Shown here piece by piece: positions 59 to 51,293 of a DNA stretch of 64,000 nucleotides. The position numbers and the translations under genes are program-made. Each line of letters starts with the position of its first letter. Within the stretch, counting starts at the first letter, position 1. The notes under the pieces were generated by a model, which did no database searches, was not told where the DNA came from, and saw only the letters and a program-made list of their open reading frames with translations. The DNA comes from Halorubrum trapanicum (lineage in GTDB: Archaea > Halobacteriota > Halobacteria > Halobacteriales > Haloferacaceae), in contig NZ_JAGGKE010000005.1 in assembly GCF_017873555.1 (NCBI RefSeq), positions 62,001-126,000 of the forward strand, in the 5' to 3' direction.

Positions 59-319
59 TTAGACTACGGCGGAAACGACCAGCACGACGCCACCTACGGC
101 GGCCGCCACGATCGCCCAGTTTCGCGCGGTGTCGAACGCTCCGTACGGGCCGCCCTTCCGCGAGAAGAGGTACAGCGCGTAGACGGCGAGCGGCGTCAGC
201 GCCGGGAGCGTCGCGACCGAGACGAGACCGGTGAAACTCGACAGCAGCGCGACCGCGACCGTCGTCGCGCCCGCGGCCGCGGCGACGAGCGCGTCCTCGC
301 GTGCCCGTTCGATCTCCAT
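59..319 (-). CDS. Small two-helix membrane protein, unknown function
   Basis: Encodes 86 residues. A charged start (MEIERARED) is followed by a hydrophobic stretch at about residues 11-53 that can hold one long or two short helices, then a polar SRKGGPYGAFDTARN turn and a C-terminal helix at about 68-86. A much longer reading frame continues upstream, but it is the antisense shadow of the FKBP gene, so I start at the ATG at 319, where the protein changes from Arg-rich nonsense to a normal haloarchaeal membrane protein. I do not recognise a named family. The 58 bases before its stop hold nothing I can identify. Confidence 0.6.
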   Translation of the reverse strand: MEIERAREDALVAAAAGATTVAVALLSSFTGLVSVATLPALTPLAVYALYLFSRKGGPYGAFDTARNWAIVAAAVGGVVLVVSAVV

Positions 320-22394: not shown

Positions 22395-22610
22395 GCGCCG
22401 GTCGAAGGCCGCACCGCAACCACCGGAAGACGGTCTCGCGCACTGCGTTCGCTGCGCGGGCTGCGACTTCCGTGCTCCCGCTCGCTCCCTTCAGTCGCTC
22501 GCGGGACCGCACCTCACGCCTCCCCAGCCTCGGCGGGCGGCGCCGCGCGGCCCGCTCGCCTCCCTCGCGTTCGCGTCGCGCCACGGGGGCGCGACGCGGC
22601 GCGCCGTCCG
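22395..22610 (+). repeat. Structured dispersed repeat, copy D (diverged, stem 1 reduced)
   Basis: This fills the 311-bp gap between the lipoprotein and the DUF63 gene. The 20-nt box CTCACGCCTCCCCAGCCTCG (22513-22532) is identical to copy A, and CCACCGGAAG resembles the 5' box. The 18-bp stem 1 is missing, replaced by a short CCCGC/GCGGG hairpin. A GCGGGC/GCCCGC pair stands at the stem 2 position. A terminal hairpin has 10-nt arms at 22573-22582 and 22588-22597. It has no TATA box in front. I read it as a decayed or variant member of the family. Confidence 0.65.
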
Positions 22611-50878: not shown

Positions 50879-50961
50879 GATTCGCGTCGGCCGCAACGTC
50901 CTCGCTGGCGTGATCGCGAGCCGGTCGTTCCGCGGTTGAGAGGATTCAGACCCCTCTCAGT

Positions 50962-51061
50962 ATTTTCCGAGCGTAGCGAGGAAAATCGCCGGCCGGGACT
51001 CCCGTGAGCGAGCGCAGCGAGCGAACGGGAGTACGGCCGGCGCACGACCGCAGGGAGTGCG
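50962..51061. other. Chain of hairpins downstream of tRNA-Gly
   Basis: In the 344 bp between the permease stop and tRNA-Gly no gene is seen, but inverted repeats follow one another: ATTTTCC/GGAAAAT (50962-50968, 50980-50986); a long one with arms CGCCGGCC plus ACTCCCGT and ACGGGAGT plus GGCCGGCG (50987-50994, 50998-51005, 51025-51032, 51035-51042); and CGCAC/GTGCG (51041-51045, 51057-51061). Loops are made of GAGCGAGCGCAGCGAGCG-like sequence, also found in the loops of the dispersed repeats. They lie 3' of the tRNA gene, so they may be read from its promoter. Confidence 0.7.
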
Positions 51062-51079
51062 CCGGCCGGGATTTGAACC
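51058..51079 (-). repeat. Duplicate of the tRNA-Gly 3' end (possible attachment-site scar)
   Basis: These 22 bases are identical to 51223-51244, the 3' part of the tRNA-Gly gene including the acceptor strand and half of the T arm. The copies are 165 bp apart in direct orientation. Integration of a genetic element into a tRNA 3' end leaves exactly such a copy. No integrase or cargo is found between them, so it would be a remnant. Confidence 0.6.
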
Positions 51080-51222
51080 GGAATCAGACGTGCTCGCTCA
51101 CTGCTCGCGGCTTCGCCGCTCGCTCTTCGAGGCGCTCGCTTCGCTCGCGCCTCGCCCCGCTCGCTGCGCGCGACTGATAGGGTACAAATCCCTCGGCGAT
51201 TTCTCTCACTTCGTTCGAGAAA

Positions 51223-51293
51223 TGCGCCGGCCGGGATTTGAACCCGGGCCATGAGCTTGGAAGGCTCAGGTCCTACCACTAGACCACCGGCGC
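51223..51293 (-). tRNA. tRNA-Gly (anticodon UCC)
   Basis: Seventy-one nt fold into a full cloverleaf. Acceptor GCGCCGG pairs with CCGGCGC, followed by discriminator A; D arm TGGTCTAGTGGTAGGAC; anticodon stem TGAGC/GCTCA around CTTCCAA, giving anticodon TCC; T arm CCGGG-TTCAAAT-CCCGG. CCA is not encoded. A TATA-like element lies about 46 nt upstream. Confidence 0.95.

Follow-up and report, generated by a model that had tools for sequence, protein, structure and literature searches.

The window analysed here, a 64,000-nucleotide stretch of the Halorubrum trapanicum genome (G000), carries on its minus strand a gene for tRNA-Gly(UCC) at 51223-51293 (ARAGORN; RF00005, 71 bits). The final 22 nt of this gene (51223-51244) recur at 51058-51079 with 22/22 identity (plus-strand letters TGCGCCGGCCGGGATTTGAACC), the adjacent base being mismatched on both sides. 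The duplication is exact, as the preliminary description had it, and so is the spacing given there, 165 bp from start to start with 143 bp in between. With 3 mismatches allowed, these two are the only matches to the 22-bp tail in the window, and no such match occurred in 100 shuffles of the window. A 65-aa open frame on the plus strand (MRRPGFEPESDVL...MRRPGFEPGP; 51057-51254) spans both copies; frames spanning tail copies may get annotated as hypothetical proteins.

Reading the DNA between the copies along the tRNA strand revealed an ordered unit, in which the tRNA tail is followed by a leader hairpin, an inverted tail, a palindromic core and the direct tail. The leader hairpin (L; TTTCTCGAACGAAGTGAGAGAAAT; 51199-51222, minus strand, as for all parts of the unit) was recognised by direct reading and is paired in the computed fold. 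Aligning the segment locally with the reverse-complemented tail located a degraded tail copy in inverted orientation (51180-51198; inner end GGGATTTGTACC), the inner part of which pairs with 51068-51079 in the alignment to a covariance model of the hairpin, R1. The palindromic core (51080-51179), of the type 'CTATCAGTCGCGCGCAGCGA ... CACGTCTGATTCC', is supported by the match to the same model, which was made from 42 units not including the one in the window and which matches 51068-51192 with E = 3.1e-13 (63 bits). The last part is the 22-bp repeat (51058-51079), an exact direct copy of tRNA nt 52-73. In computed folds the segment 51040-51310, tRNA included, scored better than 200/200 shuffles (z -3.7).

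Farther from the tRNA, a flank that we call X (50987-51057, minus strand) consists of an inverted acceptor end (51034-51044), a palindrome and a partial direct acceptor end (50987-50998), as determined by tail matches at +179..189 (inverted) and +225..236 (direct), and is an acceptor-only version of the unit layout. Next to it, at 50942-50986 (minus strand), direct reading found another leader hairpin together with an inverted T arm in a decayed state, a recognisable core being absent; the same place is occupied by a complete unit at loci L051, L053 and L060. Rfam searches of the locus (E up to 1) and of the whole window (gathering score) gave nothing above threshold beyond the tRNA, the RtT family included, and weak matches to mascRNA and ycf2 were rejected because both sit on the tRNA. 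The possibility that the inverted tail is a C/D or H/ACA guide RNA was dropped since box motifs are not common to the core types. When the locus was compared with plasmids and phages by BLAST, 2 haloarchaeal plasmids and 6 Streptomyces phage records matched in the tRNA-Gly part only, none covering 80% of the query.

Presence of the unit varies among relatives. We compared 29 orthologous tRNA-Gly(UCC) loci, comprising the window and 28 relatives (L055, without the tRNA, was omitted), and found a tail copy of at least 17/22 in 14 of them, the window included; the contig ends inside the copy in one, and other DNA follows the tRNA in six. In the remaining 8/29 the window's outer flank is joined straight to the tRNA without a copy of at least 17/22, and BLAST pieces follow the same pattern. 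Because these eight loci join the same flank directly to the tRNA, 51058-51222 (165 bp, minus strand) reads as an insertion between the two. Flank X abuts the tRNA directly in 11/29 loci. Among the eight copy-free loci, no fewer than five (L036, L039, L042, L052 and L056) show vestiges of an inverted T arm or of a core at a greater distance from the tRNA; in these only the first place is empty, and loss is possible there. The outcome that the preliminary description held would speak against a scar, the same duplicate in all relatives with no insertion anywhere, was not observed among the 29 loci. Cores differ among loci that share one leader (e.g., L031, L033 and L047), and thus change separately from leaders. 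At the tRNA-Gly gene of genome G022 (L155, 88-1335) there is a 1.2-kb insertion that closes with a 21/22 tail copy and holds one 180-aa frame, the start of which we take to be pilin-like; no integrase-sized frame is listed in it.

Units occur behind many other tRNAs. We read the sequences downstream of the Rfam tRNAs in G000 (44) and G027 (46) and scanned three more genomes, from three other families, giving a census of five genomes (G000, G027, G055, G058 and G056) in four haloarchaeal families. Its records are ARAGORN genes (45, 46, 45, 45 and 44, in that order), from which the Rfam matches (44, 46, 44, 42 and 44) differ slightly; one low-scoring tRNA match of G056 was excluded (44 fetched of 45). 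A direct copy of the gene's own tail lies within 450 nt of 104/225 tRNAs (16/45, 23/46, 25/45, 25/45 and 15/44), a count that takes in a number of genuine tandem tRNA-Asp genes and of acceptor-only copies (score 13-14). The corresponding count for foreign tails is 196/8,854 (33/1784, 59/1854, 47/1756, 40/1764 and 17/1696). For inverted copies, taken at a looser score, the counts are 83/225 for own tails (15/45, 18/46, 22/45, 15/45 and 13/44) and 880/8,854 for foreign ones (160/1784, 193/1854, 211/1756, 174/1764 and 142/1696). G027 contains tandem arrays, and the 450 nt behind its tRNA-Lys(UUU) contain four tail copies. Four genomes from other classes within the same phylum were represented by their 25 best-scoring tRNAs, and a direct tail copy was found behind none of these.

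The covariance model R1 finds matches in 112 of the 116 genomes examined in the class (1-35 per matching genome; the misses are G044, G047, G068 and G101), four of the five genomes from which it was made (G000, G027, G055 and G056) being among the 112. In G000, G027 and G055, 50/59 R1 matches with T arms lie within 1 kb downstream of a same-strand tRNA, where under 1% would be expected. As for the other nine, three lie behind tRNAs missing from the Rfam list, two behind a 4.7-kb integrase element at tRNA-Tyr and two in a dispersed repeat, one is another match's shadow on the reverse strand, and one is G027:1144340. Fourteen further matches, to the core only, lie away from tRNAs, and the six of these in G000 are all within the dispersed repeat. 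In the window, such a core copy without T arms (22418-22477, minus strand; 33.5 bits) sits inside a longer dispersed GC-rich repeat (GAGGCTGGGGAGGCGTGAGG ... GGACTCAAAGGGGCAG), which is present at several places of G000 and has no Rfam match at gathering score. We conclude that the 22-bp copy is very likely the right arm of a member of a class-wide haloarchaeal family of tRNA-tail hairpin units.

The direct copy has a sharp edge at tRNA nt 53, where T stem and T loop meet. Across 111 units its identity to the tRNA is at least 0.95 from nt 70 back to nt 53 and 0.82-0.90 at nt 71-73, and it falls sharply upstream (0.98, 0.80, 0.58 and 0.38 at nt 53, 52, 51 and 50), a drop that lies partly within the query, the units having been selected by a 24-nt tail match. 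When the genome collection was searched for exact matches to 23 nt, of which three belong to the arm and twenty to the core, 46 places in 45 stretches were recovered, from Halorubrum, Halobellus, Halopenitus, Halosimplex, Halomicrobium, Natrinema, Natronorubrum, Natronolimnohabitans and one Halobacteriales assembly. In 42 of the 46 places there is a tRNA within 400 nt upstream (nine kinds in all), and in 37 the core is then followed by that tRNA's own tail; of the remaining four, one lies 429 nt from a tRNA, behind another unit, and three have no tRNA in the sequence, two of these being near its edge.

The inverted arm likewise tends to match its host. Its seven T-loop letters are the complement of the host's in 29/42 cases, as compared with a mean of 10.1 and a maximum of 18 when hosts were permuted (2000 permutations); counted by letter, 278/294 match, versus at most 262 with permuted hosts. 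Over 103 units the inverted tail scored 11.25 on its own tail and 8.12 on foreign tails. The own tail was strictly the best in only 33/103 units, and 13% of foreign tails score as well, because T loops are alike. The arms match the host tRNA with some exceptions, and the cores are common to different tRNAs. Closely similar cores lie behind Gly-CCC and Ser-GGA in G027 and behind Gly-TCC and Gly-CCC in G000, the latter pair being the window core and its paralogue, which are 92% identical. At three loci of G027 (L107, L127 and L122) a nested palindrome (GAGAGGGACCGAAGGTCCCTC and GCCGGCGC...GCGCCGGC) was noted; it is contained in the cores behind tRNA-Gly(CCC) and tRNA-Ser(GGA), and pieces similar to it occur in an X-like stretch behind tRNA-Gly(GCC).

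Core length is 100 bp in the window and 9 to 148 bp, as delimited by script, among the units listed. The cores share the motif AG(T/A)CGC...CGTCT, and their outer stem has changes on both sides in 5/6 pairs. We examined covariation in an alignment of 42 of the 85 listed units, which were chosen for having the core motif and include related sequences. In the tail helix and outer core stem 92.6% of cells are paired, as compared with 82.1 +/- 0.8 in shuffled alignments and 21-55% for slid structures, and double-change cells number 76 versus 23.5 +/- 4.0; neither the observed pairing nor the double changes were reached in 500 shuffles. Further pair types, one of the five covariation measures, were not unusual (reached by 78/500 shuffles). 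An alignment of cores with the T arms left out (A2) was misaligned at its 3' side, and no model was made from it. Covariation in the helices lends support to, and is not proof of, the predicted structure.

Three other explanations were weighed against the mobile palindromes that we favour. The units may be kept as RNA, in which case the inverted tail and tail copy, transcribed downstream of the tRNA, would form a hairpin that would mimic the acceptor/T arm and would be cut by tRNA-processing enzymes; the outcome might be a small RNA or, by analogy with what has been proposed for the E. coli tyrT operon, control of 3' maturation. The position of 50/59 T-arm matches behind same-strand tRNAs and the compensatory changes in both helices argue for this, as does E. 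coli tyrT itself, where the same layout comes with an annotated RNA, RttR. RtT RNAs are reported to be released from tRNA operons (PMC4986893). On the other side, orthologous tRNAs within a genus differ erratically in having a unit, some half of the tRNAs lack one, and Rfam gave no match besides the tRNA. In addition, many leaders open with a T run, which would terminate archaeal transcription. We regard such a trailer RNA as unlikely, whichever of the two outcomes is supposed.

The preliminary description had read the 22-bp copy as a possible integration scar at a live attachment target. An integrase-bearing element with a 22-bp att core would have entered tRNA-Gly and shrunk to 143 bp, and the same would have happened at other tRNAs. 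Part of this reading stands, since tRNA-Gly is used as an integration target in relatives and the segment behind it is variable. Directly behind tRNA-Gly, G012 and G007 have a phage integrase gene (PF00589), and G016 an integrase-like frame in two pieces, the first without a Pfam match. An 8.1-kb element in G016 and a 12-kb element in G012 end in tRNA-end copies of 48 and 43 bp, respectively (lengths by eye), beginning in the anticodon arm; the G007 contig stops ahead of any second copy. For an island of Haloquadratum, too, a repeat of 43 nt has been reported (PMC3119063). Integrase genes at tRNA-Gly and elements ending in tail repeats favour a scar, as does an integrase element of G055 that lies between tRNA-Tyr and unit-bearing tRNA fragments. 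The G055 element, 4.7 kb long (L415, 162-5072), includes an integrase gene (PF00589, PF02899) that points away from a tandem pair of tRNA-Tyr fragments, both of them interrupted by hairpins at the T-stem/T-loop junction. Behind G027 tRNA-His (L144/L154) a PF00589 gene starts right after a short hairpin, and no second tRNA-His tail copy (18/23, or a 12-nt exact end) was found in the 19.9 kb covered. Published accounts offer further points in favour of a scar: short haloarchaeal att sites exist, with 13 bp for SNJ2 (PMC8371274); partial tRNA duplications of 22 and 43 bp in Haloquadratum have been ascribed to prophage (PMC3119063); and H. gibbonsii has 11 partial tRNAs, several of which adjoin a full copy (PMC7921747).

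The part of the scar reading that is not supported is the collapsed element. The repeats are of unequal length, 22 bp in the window versus 43-48 bp for the elements integrated at tRNA-Gly, integrases with shorter cores being possible, and beyond the far repeat of the G016 element there are another two tail copies with their units. No integrase or other element genes, or remains of them, were found between the 22-bp copies, where the 143 bp consist of hairpins and of short frames running across the tail copies, and a search of a viral contig collection with the 22-mer and 20 nt of the core returned no exact match. A scar is already strained by the inverted arm; it predicts neither an inverted tail that matches the host, nor a core motif common to different tRNAs and families, nor tandem units, and units stand behind other tRNAs as well. 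Integration does occur at tRNA-Gly, but the copy of 22 bp is of another nature; a collapsed provirus is unlikely here, and integration scars as the general source of the units are, in our estimate, very improbable. Least probable is a pure replication artefact, in which polymerase strand switching at tRNA hairpins, with no mobile element or function involved, would produce the alternation of tail, inverted tail and tail with hairpins between, seen also in the acceptor-only layout of X, since it leaves unexplained the similar cores at different tRNAs of one genome (cases that already suggest transfer of cores between tRNA loci), the single core sequence found in eight named genera and the core copies away from tRNAs.

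Mobile palindromes are favoured over scars by tRNA fragments that are split at the T-stem/T-loop junction. Five such longer fragments are interrupted at nt 53/54 by a two-hairpin insert, namely tRNA-Phe in G027 and G055, tRNA-Tyr twice in G055 and tRNA-Pro in G055; a systematic search of the census found the two tRNA-Phe cases only, and the tRNA-Tyr and tRNA-Pro cases came from reading. A third candidate of the search, at tRNA-Asp of G000, was rejected, as it is a neighbouring whole gene. The splits mark the junction as a landing site of hairpin DNA. Since the left side of these fragments is a direct tRNA piece and not an inverted tail, they show the junction as a target rather than the origin of the standard unit.

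From the observed layout, host-specific arms, edge at nt 53, shared cores, presence and absence, tandem arrays and split tRNA fragments, we infer a mechanism to which we give about an even chance: mobile palindromes would land at the T-loop junction, and their arms would then be homogenised by hairpin-templated copying. Insertion as the cause, an enzyme for it and the copying are postulates of this scheme. Small palindromic elements without genes, comparable to the small mobile repeats of Haloquadratum, would insert between nt 53 and 54 of a duplicated tRNA end. While the hairpin is replicated, strand switching would copy the tail backwards across the core and in this way both create and preserve the inverted arm. 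Units would be multiplied, removed and swapped by recombination between tails of 21-22 bp, and the tRNA would stay whole, keeping the proximal tail. At 21 sites where the direct copy differs from the tRNA, the inverted tail agrees with the copy in 11, with the tRNA in 9 and with neither in 1, an even split by which hairpin-templated copying is not demonstrated. No transposase or recombinase was found tied to the units. It is conceivable, though we think it rather doubtful, that the class as a whole harbours gene-less mobile hairpins that land at the tRNA T loop, have their arms rewritten in each host and move as a folded single strand, which a recombinase or HUH enzyme acting in trans would recognise much as attC or IS605 ends are recognised. 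The asymmetry of the core is conserved (a T-T mismatch and a fixed orientation), which would also fit an RNA role.

No description of this family was found in the open-licence literature on haloarchaeal tRNA-associated palindromes, partial tRNAs, REPs, trailers and RtT/tyrT. The 178-bp repeats of E. coli K-12 tyrT, with RttR (RtT RNA, tpr), resemble the units in having tail copies behind the tRNA, an inverted tail (GGGGAAGGAT), a GC-rich hairpin stretch per repeat and tandem steps, here of 178 bp. They differ in that the E. coli copy begins inside the T loop and the haloarchaeal one at nt 53, and in that a single E. coli locus was examined, whereas haloarchaeal units stand at a third to half of the tRNA genes. 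Integrase attL/attR sites at tRNA genes share with the units a direct copy of the tRNA 3' end, variability between strains and a tRNA used by real integrases, but the units have no integrase, a copy of 21-22 nt as compared with 43-48 at tRNA-Gly, an inverted tail and a shared core. REP/BIME palindromes and integron attC sites are likewise imperfect hairpins, and the inner ends of the unit, AAC...GTT, presumably resemble those of attC; unlike either, the unit has arms of tRNA sequence, and it is not known to depend on a RAYT or an IntI. Several rtT-like elements are reported to belong to BIMEs (PMC2965389). SMR-A of Haloquadratum walsbyi is described as a gene-less element of about 110 bp with inverted ends, inserted into palindromes without target duplication by a mode of movement termed enigmatic (PMC3119063). 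By this description SMR-A may be a counterpart of the unit, whose core is 100 bp in the window and 9 to 148 bp among the units listed and whose inverted ends are derived from the tRNA. SMR-A, however, targets PATEs and IS605-type ends, whereas the site of the unit is the T-stem/T-loop junction and its arms match the host tRNA. As for strain-specific presence within a hairpin target, the units offer copy-free sites and fragments split at the T-stem/T-loop junction, in which gain and loss are not separated.

tRNA 3' ends are mostly viewed as passive targets of integrases, and short copies of their tails are filed as prophage scars. In the haloarchaea examined here, many of these short copies belong to an ordered, host-matched repeat family that stands behind a third to half of the tRNA genes, which bears on how att sites, genomic islands and 'partial tRNAs' are annotated. 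Through comparison of many loci, the family also opens the origin of the E. coli tyrT repeats to testing. Should the units move, they would rank as site-specific elements of very small size; should they act as RNA, they would constitute a common tRNA trailer in an archaeal class.
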